A program made the position numbers and the translations under genes. A DNA stretch of 64,000 nucleotides from Halegenticoccus soli (GTDB lineage: Archaea > Halobacteriota > Halobacteria > Halobacteriales > Haloferacaceae): assembly GCF_002844195.1 (NCBI RefSeq), contig NZ_PEND01000002.1, positions 186,001-250,000 on the forward strand. Reading direction: 5' to 3'. The notes under the pieces were generated by a model that had not been told where the DNA came from, made no database searches, and worked only from the letters and a program-made list of their open reading frames with translations. Positions 30,503-59,940 of the stretch are shown here, in pieces. Numbering within the stretch: the first letter of the stretch is position 1; every line of letters starts with the position of its first letter.

Positions 30503-31354
30503 TCAGCCGCCGGCCAGCAGCTCCTCCGCGTGGCGCTTCCCGAGGGCGATCGTGTCGTAATCCTCGGTTCCGATTTCGAGCGTCGCGGTCCCCGACCAGC
30601 CGGCGTCCGCCAGCCCCGAGAGCGCCGCGGCGAAGTCGAGACGCCCCATCCCGACCGGGAGGTGCTCGTCGCCGCCGCCGCGGGTGTCGACCAGGTGGAG
30701 GTGTCCGATCCGGTCGGCGTGGTCGCGCAGGAACGCGGCCATCTCGGTCTCGTCCGCGCCGGCGAGCAGCGCGTGGCTGGTGTCGAACGTCATCGAGGCG
30801 TCCGGGTACCGTTCGAGCAGTTCCGGGAAGGTCGTCACGTCGTAATAGTCTGAGACGACGTTCTCGACGCAGGGATCGAGTCCGCGCTCGCGGGCCGCCG
30901 GGATCAGATCGTCGAGCCCCGCGTGGACGAATCTGCGGCGCTCCGCCTCGGTCCAGCCCAGCTCCCAGGCGTCCGAGGAGGGGTGAAACACGACGGTCTC
31001 CGCGCCGAGATCGGCCGCGAGATCCATCCCGGCGGTGAGTTCCGCCACCGCGCCCTCCCGGACGGGCGTGAACGGCGAGCCCGGATCGACGGCGAACGGG
31101 AGGTGGACGACGATGTCCCTCCCCGCGTCGGCGAGGGTCGCCCGCATAGTCTCTCGGCGGTCGGCGATGCGCTCGCGGGCGTAAGGACCGTCTAGCAGCA
31201 GTTCCACGAAGTCGAACCCCTCGTCCGCCGCCCATCGGACGGCCTCGTCGAACGCCATGCCGAGGCCGACGGTGAATCCGAGGTCGACATCGAGATCGAG
31301 GTCGAGTTTCCGGTCGGGATCGCCGTCTCGGTCGGTCCGGCCGTCGTCCGTCAT
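30503..31354 (-). CDS. Sugar phosphate isomerase/epimerase (TIM barrel)
   Basis: The 283-residue protein is an AP-endonuclease-2-like TIM barrel of the xylose-isomerase superfamily. Metal-site strands are VVFHPSSDAWELGW, PCVENVVSDYYD, MTFDTSHALLAG and HLHLVDTRGGGDEHLP, with the final Glu in ATLEIGTEDY. An acidic N-terminal tail (about 20 residues of Asp-rich repeats) precedes it. A close paralogue is encoded at 53541-54323, sharing VHLPFA and HPSSDA. Members isomerise or epimerise keto-sugars or hydroxypyruvate. The substrate here is unknown. Confidence 0.85.
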   Translation of the reverse strand: MTDDGRTDRDGDPDRKLDLDLDVDLGFTVGLGMAFDEAVRWAADEGFDFVELLLDGPYARERIADRRETMRATLADAGRDIVVHLPFAVDPGSPFTPVREGAVAELTAGMDLAADLGAETVVFHPSSDAWELGWTEAERRRFVHAGLDDLIPAARERGLDPCVENVVSDYYDVTTFPELLERYPDASMTFDTSHALLAGADETEMAAFLRDHADRIGHLHLVDTRGGGDEHLPVGMGRLDFAAALSGLADAGWSGTATLEIGTEDYDTIALGKRHAEELLAGG

Positions 31355-31568
31355 GGAGACCACGGCGGGGGGCCTCGGAGATAGCCGTTCCGATCCGGGT
31401 CGGACGGTGACCTCCCTCGCCAAGAAACATGTCATCGATCCGCCTCGGCGTTCTCTTCCCGCCGCCGATCAATCCCGGGTTTTACGGGTGACGGTCCGTT
31501 TGCGGAGCGGGACGCGGGAGACGCACACAAAGCTTTTATCGTCCTCCTCTTTCGAATCGGACAGCACC

Positions 31569-52628: not shown

Positions 52629-52706
52629 TCGTCGCCGAACCGATAGACCGTCGCGCGTCGCCGAATCAGCGGACCGTCACTCGCCGCCGAATCGGCGGAC
52701 CGTCAC
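52629..52706. repeat. Three tandem 26-bp repeats at rpiA 3' end
   Basis: Three units of exactly 26 bp lie at 52629-52654, 52655-52680 and 52681-52706. All share the core cgccgaa-c-g-ggaccgtc with a few differences. The last one encodes the C-terminus of rpiA (VTVRRFGGE), and the other two lie beyond its stop codon. Confidence 0.9.
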
Positions 52707-53372
52707 CCCCTCGTCGGTCCCGACGTGGACCTCGTCCGCGAGGCCGACGAACAGCCCGTGCTCGACGACGCCGGGCGTCCCGGAGAGCGTCCGCGCCAGC
52801 GCGGCCGGGTCGTCGATCCGCCCGAAGTCGCAGTCGAGCACGAGGTTGCCGTTGTCGGTCACTACCGGTCCGTCCTTCCGCTCGGCGCTCCGGAGGGTCG
52901 GCTCGCCCCCCGCGCCCTCGATCGCGCGCGCGACGGCCGTCCGGGCGGCGGGGAGCACCTCGACCGGCACGGGGCGGTCGAGCGCGTCGCTCTCCTTCGA
53001 GGGGTCCGCGACCACGACGAACCGCTTCGCGGCGGCGTCGACGATTTTCTCCCGCGCGTGCGCCGCTCCCCCGCCCTTGATGAGGTCGCCGCCGGCGATC
53101 TGATCGGCCCCGTCGAGGGCGAGGTCGACCGACTCGACCTCGTCGAGCGCGACGAGCGGCACCCCGACCTCGCGCGCGAGTTCGCGCGAGGCGAAGGAGG
53201 TCGGGACGCCCCGGACGTCGAGCCCCGCGTCGACCGCGCGGCCGAGCGCCCGGATCGCGTGGGCCGCCGTGCTCCCCGTGCCGAGTCCGACCGTCATCCC
53301 GTCGTCGGCGAGCGCCGCGGCGCTCTCGCCGGCGCGGCGTTTCGCCCCGTCGCTTCCGCCGGTGTTCTTCAT
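52677..53372 (-). CDS. rpiA: Ribose-5-phosphate isomerase A
   Basis: The enzyme interconverts ribose 5-phosphate and ribulose 5-phosphate. The 231-residue protein has GMTVGLGTGSTAAHAIRALG (phosphate loop, about 24-43), VPTSFASRELAREVGVPLV, DLALDGADQIAGGDLIKGGG and DPSKESDAL, VPVEVLP. Lengths and motifs match RpiA. The frame is open to 53399, but MKNTGGSDGAKRRAGESAA at 53372 is the family start. The last nine codons are a unit of a 26-bp tandem repeat running past the stop. Confidence 0.95.
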   Translation of the reverse strand: MKNTGGSDGAKRRAGESAAALADDGMTVGLGTGSTAAHAIRALGRAVDAGLDVRGVPTSFASRELAREVGVPLVALDEVESVDLALDGADQIAGGDLIKGGGAAHAREKIVDAAAKRFVVVADPSKESDALDRPVPVEVLPAARTAVARAIEGAGGEPTLRSAERKDGPVVTDNGNLVLDCDFGRIDDPAALARTLSGTPGVVEHGLFVGLADEVHVGTDEGVTVRRFGGE

Positions 53373-53540: not shown

Positions 53541-54323
53541 ATGAGGACCGGATTCGTCACGCAGACGCACACGGGCGACGTCGCCGCCTCCGAGGCCGCG
53601 GCGCAGGCCGCGGCGTTCGGGTTCGACTTCGTCGAGCTGTACATGGACGGCGCGACCGAGCGCACGCGGCTGGACCGCGCGGCGCTCTCGGAGGCGCTTT
53701 CGGACCGCGGGCTCGACCTCCTGGTCCACCTCCCGTTCGCGGATCTCGATCTGGGTTCGCCCCGGGACCGGATCCGCGAGGCGTCGATCGAAGAGCAGAA
53801 GGTGTGCATCGAGGACGCCGCCGGGATGGGCGCGGAGAAGGCCGTTCTCCACCCGAGTTCGGACGCGACGCCCCCCGAGTGGGAGCCCGAGGAGATCTAC
53901 CCCGCGATCGTCGAGTCGGTGAACGACCTCGACGCGTTCGCCCGCGACCGCGGGCTGGAGATCTGCGTCGAGAACCTGCCGGGCGTCCCGCTCACGATCG
54001 ACGAGTTCGACCTCGTGTTCGACGGGACGGACGCCTCGATGACGCTCGACACCGGCCACGCGCGGGTCGACGGGTTCGAGGCCGGGGACATCGCGGCGTT
54101 CCTGGAGGCGCACCTCAACCGCGTCTCGCACCTCCACCTCAACGACACGCGCGGTCCGCGCGACGAGCACCTCCCGTTCGGGTCGGGGACGCTCGACTTC
54201 CCGACGGCGCTCGCCCCGCTTTTCGACGCCGACTGGGACGGGACCGCCTCGCTCGAAGTGTACACGTTCGACGCCGACTACCTCGAACTCGGAAAGCGCA
54301 AGCTCGATGCACTGCTCGCCTGA
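53541..54323 (+). CDS. Sugar phosphate isomerase/epimerase, paralogue
   Basis: The 260-residue TIM-barrel protein parallels the one at 30503-31354: DLLVHLPFADLDLGSPRDRI, VLHPSSDATPPEWEPEEIY, ICVENLPGVPLTIDEFD, MTLDTGHARVDGF and HLHLNDTRGPRDEHLPFGSG, with the metal-site Glu in SLEVYTFDADYLEL. It lies between rpiA and the glycerol-phosphate cluster, 54 bp before the transferase gene, so it could supply a sugar or polyol phosphate to that cluster. The substrate is unknown. Confidence 0.85.
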   Translation: MRTGFVTQTHTGDVAASEAAAQAAAFGFDFVELYMDGATERTRLDRAALSEALSDRGLDLLVHLPFADLDLGSPRDRIREASIEEQKVCIEDAAGMGAEKAVLHPSSDATPPEWEPEEIYPAIVESVNDLDAFARDRGLEICVENLPGVPLTIDEFDLVFDGTDASMTLDTGHARVDGFEAGDIAAFLEAHLNRVSHLHLNDTRGPRDEHLPFGSGTLDFPTALAPLFDADWDGTASLEVYTFDADYLELGKRKLDALLA

Positions 54324-54377: not shown

Positions 54378-55586
54378 ATGCCCGTGAGCCCCCGCACCGT
54401 CGTCGGTCGGCTCCGCCGCTACTGCTCGCTCCTCGCCGAGGCGGTCGTCCACGCCGCCGTCGCGCTCGCCACCGGCGCGGTCGGCCGCGACGACGACCTG
54501 TGGGTCTTCGGCGCCCGCGGCGGCTCGACGTTCGGCGAGAACAGCAAGTACCAGTTCCTCCACGTCGCAGACCGCTGCCCCGGCGTGCGAGCGGTCTGGA
54601 TCGCGCGCGACCGCGACGTGATCGGCGCGCTCCGGTCCCGCGGGTACGAGGCGTACCACCCCTTTTCGCCCCGCGGCGTCCTCCTGCAACTCCGCGCCGG
54701 CGTCGTCTTCCTGACCCACAACTTCCGCGACGTGAACCGCTGGACCGTCGGCGGTGCGACGGTCGTCATGCTCTGGCACGGCATCCCGATGAAGCGGGTC
54801 TCCTGGGACGCCGAACTCGGGAAACTGCCGCCGGTCGTCCGGTCGGCCTCCCGGTACCTCTACCGGCGGTACGACTGCGTCGCCCTGACCGGCCGGGGGA
54901 CGCTCGACGTGTTCGTCTCCGGGTTCCGCCTGCCGCCGGAGCGGTTCGCGGTCACGGGCTACCCCCGGACCGACGTGCTGTTCGAACCCGTCCCGGACGC
55001 GGACGTCGGCGTGGCGACGGACGCGCTCGCGGAGATCCGCCGGCTCTCCGAGGGGCACGACGTGCTCCTCTACCTGCCGACGTTCCGCGAGGAGCCGGAC
55101 GCGCGCGCGACCGAACACCTGGATCTCGACGCGCTCGACCGCCTCCTGGACGCCCACGACGCGTACCTCGTCCTGAAGCTCCACCCGGAGGAGCGCCTGG
55201 ACCGCGACGTGTCGGACTACTCGCGGCTCCTCCGGCTCCCGTCCGAGTCCGACGTCTACCCGGTGCTCCCGCACACGGACGCGCTGATAACCGACTACTC
55301 CTCCGTGTTCTTCGAGTACTTGTTGCTCGACGAGCCGGTGATCTTCTACCCCTACGACCTCGGGGAGTACCGCGCCGGGCGCGGGTTCTACTACGAGTAC
55401 GACTCGGTCACGCCGGGGCCGACGGCGACGGACGGCGACGAACTCCTCGCGGCGGTCGATCGGACGCTCGGGGGGGAGGACCGGTTCGCGGCGGAGCGGC
55501 GGGCGGTCCGGGACCGCTTTTTCGACCACCGGGGCGGCGGGCGGGCGGCGGCGGTCTGCGACGCCGTGAGGGACCGCCTTGATTGA
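54378..55586 (+). CDS. CDP-glycerol glycerophosphotransferase-family protein (TagB/TagF-like)
   Basis: The 402-residue protein has the GT-B fold of teichoic acid polymerases: DLWVFGARGGSTFGENSKY, VVMLWHGIPMKRVSWD (catalytic His region, about 130-145), VTGYPRTDVLFE, VLLYLPTFREEPDARAT, LKLHPEE and ITDYSSVFFEYLLLDEPVIF, the most telling motif (about 300-320). A short hydrophobic N-terminal helix (LLAEAVVHAAVALATGAVG) suggests membrane association. In Gram-positive bacteria the family adds glycerol phosphate from CDP-glycerol to lipid-linked disaccharide. In haloarchaea the acceptor would be a surface glycan or lipid. It is followed by a GDPD and a nucleotidyltransferase-HAD gene. Confidence 0.88.
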   Translation: MPVSPRTVVGRLRRYCSLLAEAVVHAAVALATGAVGRDDDLWVFGARGGSTFGENSKYQFLHVADRCPGVRAVWIARDRDVIGALRSRGYEAYHPFSPRGVLLQLRAGVVFLTHNFRDVNRWTVGGATVVMLWHGIPMKRVSWDAELGKLPPVVRSASRYLYRRYDCVALTGRGTLDVFVSGFRLPPERFAVTGYPRTDVLFEPVPDADVGVATDALAEIRRLSEGHDVLLYLPTFREEPDARATEHLDLDALDRLLDAHDAYLVLKLHPEERLDRDVSDYSRLLRLPSESDVYPVLPHTDALITDYSSVFFEYLLLDEPVIFYPYDLGEYRAGRGFYYEYDSVTPGPTATDGDELLAAVDRTLGGEDRFAAERRAVRDRFFDHRGGGRAAAVCDAVRDRLD

Positions 55587-55720
55587 GGGGGACGAATCAG
55601 CCCTTTCCGCACGGGCTATATAGTCATGGGTTGGTGTACTGTGTCGGGACAAGTGGTATGTATACCCAACAGACAGTTTGATATAGCGGATCGTTCTATG
55701 GTGGAACAACGCGATCACAC

Positions 55721-56647
55721 ATGGCGTGTCCAACGGGAGCCACCGACCGACCCGATTCTCTTCTCCAGACCGACGACGTCGCGTGCATCGCCCACCGCGG
55801 ATTCGCGGGAATCGCCCCCGAGAACACGCGCACGGCCTTCGAACGCGCGGTCGGCGGGGCGTTCGGCGATCCGGCCGACGTGGTCGAACTCGACGTCATG
55901 CCGACCGCGGACGGCAAGATAGTCGTCTTTCACGACACGGACCTCGCGCGGCTCACCGACGCGCCCGCGCGGCTCCGCGAACAGTCCGTCTGGGAGACAC
56001 CATTCGAGACACTTCGGCGCTTCGAGGTTCTCGGCAGCGGCGAGTCGATCCCGCGGCTCTCCGAGATCCTGGACCTCGTCCCGCCGTCGGTCGGCCTCAA
56101 CGTCGAGTTCAAGAACCCCGGAACCGCGGCGGTCGAGTACGGGGCGCTCGACGCCGACGCGCTCGACCGCCAGCGACGCCGGTGGCACGACTTCGCCGCC
56201 GACGTGCTCGACGTGCTCGACGCGTACCCCCACGAGGCCCTCGTCTCGTCGTTCCACGAGGGCGCGCTCGCGGCCGTCCGGGAGATCGACCCGTCCGTGC
56301 CGATCGCCGCCGTCTTCTACGACTCCATCGCAGACGGGTTGCGCGTCGCGCGCCGACACGACTGCGAGGTGATCCACCCGCCCTGGAACATGATCTACGG
56401 CACGGAGCTCTTCAACGAGGAGTACTGCTCCGGCCCGTTCGAGCCCGTCGATCTCGTCGAGATCGCCCACGACGAGGGTCGCGCCGTCAACGCCTGGACG
56501 GTGAACAGCTGGTACCAGGCCGACCAGCTCCGCCAGGCGGGCGTCGACGGCATCATCACGGATTATCCGGGGCTCCTCGGATTCGACGCCGCGCCCGAAG
56601 GCGCGGCCGCCGGCGAACGGCGCGCCGATTCGATCTCCCTCCACTGA
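55721..56647 (+). CDS. Glycerophosphodiester phosphodiesterase
   Basis: The 308-residue TIM-barrel protein has CIAHRGFAGIAPENTRTAFE (about 22-41), DVVELDVMPTADGKIVVFHD (metal and catalytic residues) and RLTDAPARLREQSVWETPFE. FKNPGTAAVEYGAL, VSSFHEGALAAVREID and VNAWTVNSWYQADQLRQAGV follow, then GIITDYPGLLG. These match GDPD. It would split glycerophosphodiesters into alcohol and glycerol phosphate, so it can recycle or trim the polymer made by the neighbouring transferase. A TATA element (gatatagc) lies about 35 bp upstream in an AT-rich spacer. Confidence 0.92.
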   Translation: MACPTGATDRPDSLLQTDDVACIAHRGFAGIAPENTRTAFERAVGGAFGDPADVVELDVMPTADGKIVVFHDTDLARLTDAPARLREQSVWETPFETLRRFEVLGSGESIPRLSEILDLVPPSVGLNVEFKNPGTAAVEYGALDADALDRQRRRWHDFAADVLDVLDAYPHEALVSSFHEGALAAVREIDPSVPIAAVFYDSIADGLRVARRHDCEVIHPPWNMIYGTELFNEEYCSGPFEPVDLVEIAHDEGRAVNAWTVNSWYQADQLRQAGVDGIITDYPGLLGFDAAPEGAAAGERRADSISLH

Positions 56648-56767
56648 CCGGCTCGCTCGCCGGATCGGGACTCCGGTTTTCCGCGGTCTTGTTCCTGTCT
56701 CCTTCCGAGTCTTTCGCCTTTTCGTGAACTACCCGAGAGAATTCCATTAATTACCGGAAAATACTCG

Positions 56768-56775
56768 CATTTATT
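56768..56775 (+). promoter_or_regulatory. TATA box of the nucleotidyltransferase-HAD gene
   Basis: gcatttat lies about 30 bp before the ATG at 56802, within a notably AT-rich 150-bp spacer. Confidence 0.5.
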
Positions 56776-56801
56776 GCGCCACCAGTGGTATCTCCTGTAC
56801 A

Positions 56802-58322
56802 ATGGCTCGCTGTTCACAGGCTGTCGTCTTAGCTGCGGGTATCGGTTCTCGGCTCAAGCCGCTGACGCTCCGGAAGCCGAAGTGCTGCGTGACGGTCGAT
56901 TCGACGCCGATCCTGGCCCACCAGCTGCGCGCGTACGCCGAGGCCGGGATCTCAGAGGTGCACGTCGTCTCGGGCTACCTGAGCGACCACACCGCCCGCC
57001 TCTGCGAGCGCGTCGCGGCCGAGTACGAGGGCTTTTCGGTGTCGGTCATCGAGAACGAGGTGTACGCGAACACCGACAACCTCTACTCGTTATCTCTCGC
57101 GCGCGAGGCCGTGGACGGCGAGCCGTTCGTGCTGAGCAACGGCGACGTGGTGTTCGATCCCGGGGTGCCGGAGCGGCTCCTCGCCGCCGACGGCGACAGC
57201 GCCATCGCCTGCGACACCTCGACGTACTCCGACGAGGCGATGAAGATCACGGTCGACGAGGCGGGCCGCGTCTCCCACATCAGCAAGGGCGTCCCGCGCG
57301 AGGAGGCGCACGCCTCCTCCATCGACGTGTACCGCTTTTCAGCGTCGTTCTCGGCGGCGCTGTTCGACCAGGTGGAGCACCTCATCGATCGCGACCGGGA
57401 GTACTGCGGCTGGTCGGAGATCGCGATCGACCGGGTGCTCCGGACCGGCCGCCACGACGCTCGACCGGTCGACATCGCCGGGCTGCCGTGGGTCGAGATC
57501 GACACCGCGGAGGACCTCGTCCAGGCGGACCGGCGGTTCGCGTCGATCGGCGACCTCCGGTCGAAGAAACTCGCCTTCTTCGACCTCGACGGGACGATCT
57601 ACCTCGGGGACGAGCTCGTCGACGGCGCGGAGGCGGTCGTCTCGGCGTTCCGCGACGGCGGGACCGACGTGTACTTCCTCTCGAACAACTCCTCGCGGTG
57701 GAAGACCGACTACGCGGACAAGCTCACCTCGCTGGGCGTCCCCGCGTCACCGGAGGACGTCATCCTCTCGACCGACGGCGTCATCGAGTACCTGCGGGAG
57801 GCCGCCGACGGGGCGTACGTCGTCGGCACGGAGGCGATGCGGGACGCCATGCGCGAGCGGGGCGTCGACGTCGACGCCGACGATCCGTCGCACGTCGTGG
57901 TGGGGTTCGACACCGAACTCGACTACGAGAAGGTCCGCCGGGCGACGCTCGCGGTCCGCGACGGGGCGGAGTTCCTGCTCGCGCACCCCGATCTCGTCTG
58001 CCCGACGGCGGACGGACTCGTCCCCGACTGCGGCTCGATCGGCGCGCTCGTCGAGGCCGCGACGGGCCGGTCGCCCGCGCGCGTCTTCGGCAAGCCCAAC
58101 CCGGAGATGGTGTCTCACGTCCTCGACGAGCGGGGCGTCTCGCCGTCGGAGGCCGTCGTCGTCGGCGACCGACTCGGCACCGAGATGCGGATGGCCGAGC
58201 GCGTCGGCTGCGACTCGGTCTGCGTCCTGACCGGCGACGCGGACCGCGCGGCCGTCGAGGAGAGCTCCGTCTCCCCGTCGCTCGTGGTCCCGTCCGTCGG
58301 CGCGCTCGCGGAGCTCCTCTGA
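56802..58322 (+). CDS. Fused nucleotidyltransferase and HAD-IIA phosphatase
   Basis: The 506-residue protein joins two enzymes. Residues 1-245 are an NTP transferase: AVVLAAGIGSRLKPLTLRKP, ENEVYANTDNLYSLSLA (LicC-like), LSNGDVVFDP with the metal Asp, and VEIDTAEDLVQADRRF. Residues 255-506 are a HAD-IIA phosphatase: AFFDLDGTIYLGDELVDGAE (D261/D263), VYFLSNNSSRWKTDYADKL, FGKPNPEMVSHVL and VVVGDRLGTEMRMAERVGCD, like glycerol-phosphate phosphatases. The first domain would make a CDP- or similar nucleotide-activated small alcohol phosphate. The second would remove a phosphate from a related compound. Context (TagB-like, GDPD) suggests a CDP-polyol pathway; choline, ethanolamine or inositol phosphate remain possible. 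Confidence 0.87.
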   Translation: MARCSQAVVLAAGIGSRLKPLTLRKPKCCVTVDSTPILAHQLRAYAEAGISEVHVVSGYLSDHTARLCERVAAEYEGFSVSVIENEVYANTDNLYSLSLAREAVDGEPFVLSNGDVVFDPGVPERLLAADGDSAIACDTSTYSDEAMKITVDEAGRVSHISKGVPREEAHASSIDVYRFSASFSAALFDQVEHLIDRDREYCGWSEIAIDRVLRTGRHDARPVDIAGLPWVEIDTAEDLVQADRRFASIGDLRSKKLAFFDLDGTIYLGDELVDGAEAVVSAFRDGGTDVYFLSNNSSRWKTDYADKLTSLGVPASPEDVILSTDGVIEYLREAADGAYVVGTEAMRDAMRERGVDVDADDPSHVVVGFDTELDYEKVRRATLAVRDGAEFLLAHPDLVCPTADGLVPDCGSIGALVEAATGRSPARVFGKPNPEMVSHVLDERGVSPSEAVVVGDRLGTEMRMAERVGCDSVCVLTGDADRAAVEESSVSPSLVVPSVGALAELL

Positions 58323-58458: not shown

Positions 58459-59124
58459 TTATTTCTCGCCTTTAATCCCGATCTCCTTGTCAAAGCGTGC
58501 GAAGAACTCATTCATAAAGTCCCAGCGAGACTCACCAAGACGACGCCCAGGTGCGGTATATAGCAAGTCCAGACGTTCTCTGGCCCACTCCCTAAGCAAT
58601 TCGATGTCCGGTCGTTCCGATGTGTCTCCTTCAGAAACGGATGCGTCGTCTATTGGGGCATAGCGGTCTCCTGCTCGCCCCGACCGCTCACCGACGATAC
58701 AGGCTAAACGAACGATACCACGCGCCCCCGCGGCGTCCAGTTTGTCTGCGTCGAAGAGCAACTTCGCTTCGATAGTCTCCGGTTCGGGGGAACTGGCTCG
58801 AATACTATGAGTCGTGATGCAGTATTTGACCGCATCGATGAGGTCAGACGGGACCGCTTCTCTTTCAAGCAGTTCTACTGCTTTTCGTGCGCCCCATCTA
58901 TCGTGGTCGTCAACCTCTCCGACTCGCTCACGGGGACGACCGATGTCGTGTAGCCACGTCGCCATAGAGAGTACGTCCAGGTCAACAGTCTCCTCACACT
59001 CAGTTGCTAAGCGGAGTGCCACATCGTGAACCCGCTTCGCGTGGAAAATGTCGTGCGCTGGGAGGGCGTCTTCGTAGTAGGGCACCGACAGCGTTCGAGC
59101 GAGGGAGTCTAAGTCCTGAGCCAT
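58459..59124 (-). CDS. HD-domain phosphohydrolase
   Basis: The 221-residue protein has the HD metal site: HDIFHAKRVHDVALRLA (first His), TWLHDIGRPRERVGEVDDHD (HD), ITTHSIRASSPEP and LLFDADKLDAAGARGIVRLA (final Asp). This pattern is the YfbR/YedJ-like class that acts on nucleotides or nucleoside phosphates. Codon use is clearly lower in GC than in the flanking genes, and it begins an accessory island. The ATG at 59124 starts MAQDLDSLARTLS. It may be part of a defence or stress cassette with the adjacent toxin-antitoxin genes, or simply a passenger. Confidence 0.88.
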   Translation of the reverse strand: MAQDLDSLARTLSVPYYEDALPAHDIFHAKRVHDVALRLATECEETVDLDVLSMATWLHDIGRPRERVGEVDDHDRWGARKAVELLEREAVPSDLIDAVKYCITTHSIRASSPEPETIEAKLLFDADKLDAAGARGIVRLACIVGERSGRAGDRYAPIDDASVSEGDTSERPDIELLREWARERLDLLYTAPGRRLGESRWDFMNEFFARFDKEIGIKGEK

Positions 59125-59325
59125 ACTTGTCGTCCGAGGAGAGAATTCACGAGTTTTTCTATCTATGGAATCCTGCACACTACCACATCAACCGAACTGC
59201 GCTATCGAGACTCACCGTCTGCTGAATTTACGCTCTGCATTTAACGATTGTTCTATGCTTTTGCTGACAAATGAGTTTCCAATAATTTCGGCCCGCGTGA
59301 GAACGAGTGAGCGACAGTTCTATGT

Positions 59326-59348: not shown

Positions 59349-59630
59349 ATGAGAACGGACACGGGCGAGAACAACGGCGAGATGGTCAAGCTCAACGTCA
59401 AAGTCCCCAAGCGGCTTCTGGAAGATCTTGACGAACTTGCCGAGGAGTTGAATTACACCAATCGGTCGGAGTTCATCCGTGAGGTGCTGCGCGACACGAC
59501 GGAGCCGATTCTGACGCCCGGGGCGCAGGAGGGTGTCTCCCAGGGGTACGCGGACGTGGCAGCAGGACGGACGATGTCGATTACGGAAGCGAAGGACCGA
59601 CTCGGCATCGAGGACGAAAGCGAGGGGTGA
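59349..59630 (+). CDS. Ribbon-helix-helix antitoxin (CopG-like)
   Basis: The 93-residue protein has the RHH fold in VKLNVKVPKRLLEDLDELAE, then LNYTNRSEFIREVLRD (about 18-53): a beta-strand followed by two helices with the conserved NRSEFIR. The C-terminal part (ITEAKDRLGIEDESEG) would wrap the toxin. It lies 10 bp before a RelE-type toxin gene, as in type II toxin-antitoxin operons, and has direct repeats in front. GC is lower than in the chromosome around it. Confidence 0.88.
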   Translation: MRTDTGENNGEMVKLNVKVPKRLLEDLDELAEELNYTNRSEFIREVLRDTTEPILTPGAQEGVSQGYADVAAGRTMSITEAKDRLGIEDESEG

Positions 59631-59640
59631 GGGCTGACGA

Positions 59641-59940
59641 GTGGCGCATGACGTCGTTCTGACCGAAACGTTCTTTTCGACGGTTGAGCAGTTCGAGACA
59701 GAAGACGCGAAGCGCGTCATCAACAAACTCGAAGACATCGGCGACTTCCCGGAGCACTTCCTCGACCGGTTGAAGAACCACCCGCGGTACAAGCTCCGTG
59801 TTGGTGATTTCCGCGTGCTGATCGACTGGGACAAGGACAACGAGACGATCTACGCCATCGACGTCTTCGAGCGGAAGAAGGAATACCGCGAACTCGGGAA
59901 ATACCGCGAAGTCTGGGGGTCCTGGCGCGACGACGAATGA
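59641..59940 (+). CDS. RelE/ParE-family toxin
   Basis: The 99-residue protein (GTG start) reads VVLTETFFSTVEQFETEDAK, IGDFPEHFLDRLKNHPRYKL, RVGDFRVLIDWDKDNETIYA, IDVFERKKEYRE. The LRVGDFRVLIDWD...IDVFERKK strands and the basic C-terminal end are typical of ribosome-dependent mRNA interferases of the RelE family. Whether it cuts mRNA or inhibits gyrase (ParE) cannot be seen. Its stop overlaps the start of a third gene (ATGA). Confidence 0.88.
   Translation: MAHDVVLTETFFSTVEQFETEDAKRVINKLEDIGDFPEHFLDRLKNHPRYKLRVGDFRVLIDWDKDNETIYAIDVFERKKEYRELGKYREVWGSWRDDE

Follow-up and report, generated by a model that had tools for sequence, protein, structure and literature searches.

A window of 64,000 nucleotides from the haloarchaeon Halegenticoccus soli (assembly GCF_002844195.1, contig NZ_PEND01000002.1, positions 186,001 to 250,000) contains a cassette of four genes whose products probably activate glycerol phosphate and attach it to an acceptor in the cell envelope. 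The cassette encodes a TIM-barrel protein, a glycerophosphotransferase of family PF04464, a glycerophosphodiester phosphodiesterase (GDPD) and a fusion of a nucleotidyltransferase (NT) domain with a HAD domain (Table 1), and the active-site residues of these proteins are invariant or nearly so in alignments of relatives. An initial annotation had described the last three as consecutive genes in one direction, which their coordinates and Pfam matches confirm, all three open reading frames lying on the plus strand. The TIM-barrel gene, for which the ATG at 53541 is the best reading of the start, belongs with them.

Among 195 genomes surveyed in the haloarchaeal order, with gene neighbourhoods compared over about 20 kb, 31 contain a full-length NT-HAD fusion and 65 contain PF04464. 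All 31 genomes with the fusion carry PF04464 (Fisher p 3.5e-18, uncorrected for kinship), and the PF04464 gene adjoins the fusion gene in 26 of them. The order TIM-transferase-GDPD-fusion occurs in five of the 31 (this genome, G084, G092, G149 and G173) and also, outside the survey, in Halohasta salina, one haloarchaeon named among the matches listed by a contig scan with short HAD patterns. The order transferase-GDPD-fusion-TIM is found in 17, all from one family, to which Halorussus belongs. Other arrangements are GDPD-fusion-TIM with the transferase elsewhere in the genome (2/31), transferase-fusion with a convergent GDPD gene (4/31), fusion-TIM alone (2/31) and the fusion without other cassette genes (1/31). 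Genomes from several families carry the set, in a gene order far beyond chance, and the neighbourhood proposed in the initial annotation accordingly withstands the comparison of gene order in relatives that was suggested there. A plasmid search did not find the fusion on plasmids.

The fusion protein matches NTP_transf_3 in its first half (5.6e-15, residues 7-137) and the HAD families Hydrolase_6 (8.7e-22) and Hydrolase_like (9.2e-16) in its second (residues 259-501). The NT domain retains the nucleotide motif LAAGxGSRL and the (Y)xxTxNxYS motif shared with LicC, a CTP:phosphocholine cytidylyltransferase, and the HAD half retains DxDGT, an SNNS loop, GKP and GDR. For a profile of the haloarchaeal NT domains the top solved structures are LicC, which is the closest (E 4e-28), PntC and IPCT, all of them enzymes that use cytidine triphosphate (CTP), and CTP is the probable donor here as well. 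Unlike LicC, the haloarchaeal NT stands on a separate tree branch, is fused to a HAD domain and has no choline-linked genes. The archaeal IPCT/DIPPS enzymes likewise contain a CTP-dependent NT of the same fold within a fusion, but the partner there is a cytidine diphosphate (CDP)-alcohol phosphotransferase rather than a HAD domain. The CTP-type activating domain, the PF04464 transferase and the glycerol phosphate context uphold the theme of polyol phosphate activation in the initial annotation, and context and phylogeny together point to a CDP-glycerol as the predicted product of this activation.

Bacterial counterparts were sought with the NT domain alone as query in 300 genomes of the class Bacilli and then in a phylum survey. 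The best match in the Bacilli survey, L132, contains in one direction genes for a flippase-type protein, a glycosyltransferase, PF04464, an Fe-ADH_2 dehydrogenase, an NT and a HAD protein, the last two being 35% identical over 241 residues and 34% identical over 261 residues to the respective halves of the haloarchaeal fusion. Two further such loci, L162 and L163, both from one genome, came from the phylum survey. The exact order PF04464-dehydrogenase-NT-HAD is found in L132 and L162, two other genes lie between PF04464 and the dehydrogenase in L163, and the NT and HAD genes overlap in all three of these Bacillota loci. Dehydrogenases were scanned from L132, from L163 and from several other NT neighbours, and their best NCBIfam model is PRK00843, a glycerol-1-phosphate dehydrogenase, with E values of 1e-75 to 1e-93 overall and 1e-75 to 1e-78 for L132 and L163, all below cut-off; that of L162 was identified through homology to the L132 enzyme. 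An NT beside a glycerol-1-phosphate dehydrogenase-type gene without a HAD gene is seen in L137, L141, L147, L164-L166 and L168.

In the NT tree the haloarchaeal domains are sister to exactly the NTs of L132, L162 and L163 (support 98/95). In the HAD tree the fusion HADs group with those of the same three loci, with Lokiarchaeal HADs and with other fusions (100/99), and stand-alone haloarchaeal HADs and the sampled bacterial HADs fall outside this group. Both trees thus trace the two halves of the fusion to a single pair of neighbouring genes that were joined on the haloarchaeal side or, alternatively, separated on the other. The trees also bear on the suggestion that the same transferase uses another CDP-polyol as donor, for example CDP-inositol, or a CDP-tetritol or CDP-pentitol shaped by the TIM-barrel protein. 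In its favour, the NT is close in structure to IPCT and LicC, many sugar isomerases have a TIM fold and TarL uses CDP-ribitol, but inositol-type bacterial NTs, which lie beside CDP-alcohol phosphotransferases, form a separate branch, the sister NTs adjoin glycerol-1-phosphate dehydrogenases and the metal site of the TIM-barrel protein resembles that of a phosphoesterase, so that such a donor seems unlikely.

The closest functional parallel is pneumococcal. The wchX-gtp1-gtp2-gtp3 genes provide a CDP-2-glycerol pathway and glycerol-2-phosphate transfer in serotypes 15 and 23F, attaching glycerol phosphate as a side group, and Gtp3 is a HAD-type enzyme. Wang et al., in J Bacteriol in 2010, are said to have reported that Gtp2 makes CDP-2-glycerol and Gtp3 makes glycerol-2-phosphate. 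The haloarchaeal cassette shares with this system a PF04464-type transferase, a cytidylyltransferase and a HAD enzyme, for which L132 and L162 hold an unfused homologous set. It differs in being archaeal, in combining NT and HAD in one protein, in lacking a dehydrogenase, in the added GDPD and TIM-barrel genes and in lying outside a capsule locus. The four-gene order of L132 and L162 equals the pneumococcal order (PMC3493582, PMC5207522). As the halves of the fusion branch with bacterial NT/HAD pairs found in this order, the fusion probably makes CDP-glycerol, either 2- or 1-linked. No gtp1-like dehydrogenase gene is present in any haloarchaeal cassette examined, and a gene of the glycerol-1-phosphate dehydrogenase family Fe-ADH_2 lies elsewhere in this genome (G000:C4:102019-102450, 5.6e-31). 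A cassette without a dehydrogenase fits a cell that already makes glycerol-1-phosphate for its lipids.

The transferase is the only PF04464 protein in this genome and matches the family with 208 bits against a cut-off of 22. Its reading frame contains WHGIPMKR and ITDYSSVFFEYLLLDEPVIF, and its AlphaFold model (pLDDT 92.8) has TagF as the closest PDB fold, followed by TarL and capsule polymerases. Membership in the family is supported by the profile match, the TagF fold and the catalytic WHG, HP and DYSS motifs, with WHG-H134, K267-H269-P270 and D306-Y-S-S invariant in 20 relatives. A helix spanning residues 5-35 at the N-terminus, amphipathic in its first turns, fits a monotopic membrane protein. 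The cassette thus shares a transferase family, fold and catalytic motifs with the wall teichoic acid enzymes TagD/TagB/TagF (TarF, TarL), although its cytidylyltransferase is LicC-like rather than TagD-like. The surface polymer proposed in the initial annotation, that is, a true teichoic-acid-like poly(glycerol phosphate) built by the transferase after the same activation, would be in keeping with a family that includes the polymerases TagF and TarL, the best fold matches, with the ability of a single enzyme such as TagF to polymerise and with a GDPD suited to turnover. Polymerisation nevertheless appears improbable, as the transferase is single-domain and scores far below the NCBIfam cut-offs for TarF (86 against 550 bits), TarL (82 against 1000) and TarB (47 against 500). 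The genome gave no match to the linkage-unit enzyme WecG/TagA (PF03808) in a search whose control matched 7 genomes including B. subtilis, the cassette contains neither TagGH nor any other exporter gene, and the GDPD has no signal peptide obvious on inspection by eye. The initial proposal of a polymer is accordingly not retained.

Elsewhere in the order, at L105 14149-16185 on a Halorussus aquaticus megaplasmid, a stand-alone NTP transferase gene lies directly 5' of a PF04464 gene, in a cluster that also holds glycosyltransferases, polysaccharide lyases and a polysialyltransferase-family gene.

The TIM-barrel gene accompanies the fusion gene in most of the survey genomes that carry the fusion, at the front of the cassette in the family of this genome and at its end in another family. 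Where it follows the fusion, its start usually overlaps the fusion stop, by about 4 nt (1-8 nt across the many genomes with an overlap). A shared function is strongly indicated by the way this gene remains with the cassette while changing its side, and by its frequent translational coupling to the fusion. Cassette orthologues (at least 60% identity) were found only in cassettes, and matches of 45-56% are paralogues elsewhere. The sugar phosphate isomerase placed here by the initial annotation thus stands as a gene and as a member of the system, and, with moderate confidence and on the strength of its predicted metal site, the activity favoured here is that of a metal phosphoesterase instead of an isomerase. 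The nearest NCBIfam model is CbiR (2.9e-24, 85.9 bits against a cut-off of 105), MJ1311 matches at 8e-25, and the nine metal-ligand positions of endonuclease IV (H,H,E,D,H,H,D,H,E) are kept as the invariant residues H63, H104, E144, D170, H173, H197/H199, D208, H210 and E239. In a profile-sequence alignment eight of these, all but E239, match endonuclease IV 5zhz, MJ1311 and TTHB071. A plain isomerase would find support in the fold search, where MJ1311 and ketose epimerases rank first, but is not preferred when weighed against the metal ligands, several of which are missing from the isomerase Art22. CbiR is a cobamide phosphodiesterase of the same AP_endonuc_2 superfamily with conserved metal-type residues (PMC7733943); in contrast to CbiR, the cassette protein falls under the model cut-off and has no cobamide genes nearby. 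A second paralogue in the window (30503-31435, minus strand) is 48% identical to the cassette protein, and orthologues of a third (G000:C7:270969-271736) adjoin genes for a pfkB-type sugar kinase and an NCS2-type permease, a setting that leaves room for other roles of the TIM-barrel protein.

The GDPD belongs to its family by the HRG, PENT, E-D, HD and K motifs, which are invariant among relatives. The spacers before the GDPD and fusion genes have GC contents of 51% (134 bp) and 53% (154 bp), compared with 0.697 for the window. The position of the former is kept in the closest relatives, and in the latter the three closest relatives share a TTTATTG or CTTATTG element aligned near -30, making separate promoters plausible for both genes. 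The individual control by AT-rich spacers and promoters that was described initially is thus plausible at two of the genes, and a separate promoter for every gene is rejected at the transferase, whose 54-bp spacer from the TIM-barrel gene has 83% GC, so that the two are probably co-transcribed.

In the proposed pathway, the NT domain of the fusion would transfer cytidine monophosphate from CTP onto glycerol phosphate, and the product formed together with the HAD domain would most likely be CDP-2-glycerol, as for the pneumococcal Gtp2/Gtp3 pair, or otherwise CDP-1-glycerol. No dehydrogenase would be needed beside the cassette, as the archaeal lipid pathway already supplies sn-glycerol-1-phosphate. 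The membrane-associated PF04464 protein would then take glycerol phosphate from the CDP donor and add one or a few such groups to an acceptor, either a glycan or a lipid, decoration being likelier than a long polymer. The GDPD could remove or recycle glycerophosphodiesters inside the cell, and the TIM-barrel protein would serve this pathway as a metal-dependent enzyme, with phosphoesterase the likeliest activity. A soluble glycerophosphodiester pathway, for salvage or for a compatible solute like archaeal glycerophosphoinositol, would accommodate the apparently cytosolic GDPD, the further phosphoesterase-like domains and the lack of adjoining glycosyltransferases and exporters, and Archaeoglobus makes glycerophosphoinositol from CDP-1-glycerol (cited in PMC8262930). 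It is nonetheless very unlikely, as PF04464 enzymes are monotopic membrane enzymes with lipid-linked or glycan acceptors, other haloarchaeal PF04464 copies lie in polysaccharide clusters and the sister bacterial loci are capsule-type.

Several observations weigh against envelope decoration with glycerol phosphate by this cassette. In four genomes of one family the cassette has no TIM-barrel gene and the GDPD orientation is reversed, relatives of the TIM-barrel and GDPD genes occur in genomes without the fusion, and the cassette, unlike the bacterial loci, lies outside any polysaccharide cluster. Enzymes of the LicC type act in choline, inositol and phosphonate chemistry as well, and sequence cannot separate glycerol phosphate from other small polyol phosphates. 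A Gtp2 search of 247 Streptococcus genomes gave no match, the serotype-specific genes being perhaps absent from this sample; as the pneumococcal Gtp proteins were not among the searched data, the parallel with pneumococcus depends on the order of the genes and on the background biochemistry given above.

The surface features for which haloarchaea are known are S-layer glycoproteins and sulfated glycolipids. Modification based on CDP-glycerol, if true, would bring a new class of anionic group to these surfaces, as a direct counterpart of the chemistry of teichoic acids and capsules in bacteria, and would connect surface glycans with glycerol-1-phosphate, a precursor of archaeal lipids. A fuller and more tentative picture is of an envelope component with archaeal-type glycerol phosphate (sn-glycerol-1-phosphate or glycerol-2-phosphate). 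Its maker would be an activation and transfer module of bacterial type which turned into a fusion enzyme and acquired two phosphoesterases dedicated to it, one with a function new to the AP_endonuc_2 superfamily. The open-access literature searched yielded no description of a haloarchaeal CDP-glycerol pathway, and the cassette seems previously undescribed in archaea. Judging from the bacterial loci in which an NT adjoins a glycerol-1-phosphate dehydrogenase, bacteria may use CDP-1-glycerol chemistry more commonly than PMC8262930 assumes.

Table 1. Features of the cassette, in window coordinates
Feature	Position	Strand	Details
TIM-barrel protein (AP_endonuc_2 / CbiR- and MJ1311-like), probable metal-dependent phosphoesterase or isomerase	53541..54323	+	PF01261 E 2.5e-38
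Glycerophosphotransferase, single-domain PF04464, N-terminal amphipathic helix	54378..55586	+	402 amino acids; PF04464 E 2.6e-61
AT-richer spacer with TATA-like boxes, candidate GDPD promoter	55587..55720	+	134 bp, GC 0.507
GDPD-family glycerophosphodiester phosphodiesterase	55721..56647	+	308 amino acids; PF03009 E 7.4e-34
AT-richer spacer, TTTATTG at about -30, candidate fusion-gene promoter	56648..56801	+	154 bp, GC 0.526
Fusion of LicC-type cytidylyltransferase domain (about 1-246) and HAD-IIA domain (about 253-506)	56802..58322	+	506 amino acids

Related loci of other composition were also seen. The Bacilli loci L137, L141 and L147 combine a LicC-type NT and a glycerol-1-phosphate dehydrogenase-type gene with apparent ABC-2 polysaccharide export genes, which suggests CDP-1-glycerol based surface glycans in bacteria. 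A Lokiarchaeal contig (L081 4009-10771) holds genes for PF04464, two NTs, a PEP-mutase-like protein, a phosphonopyruvate-decarboxylase-like protein and a Gtp3-like HAD protein, and an archaeal phosphonate-containing surface glycan is possible there. In another lineage of the phylum, NT-HAD fusions (37% identity in G213 and G236; loci L077 8979-10478 and L078 6048-7547) have lost the GxGxR nucleotide motif, so that their NT half may be inactive. The 37% fusion, which also has no transferase nearby, was set aside.

On either side of the cassette, both on the minus strand, are genes for RpiA (52680-53369) and an HD-domain protein (58459-59178), which are not members. An HD-domain phosphohydrolase gene adjoins a CopG-type antitoxin and ParE-type toxin pair at 59376-59940 (PF01402 2.5e-8; PF05016 7.5e-5), which lies in a patch of 56% GC compared with 70%.

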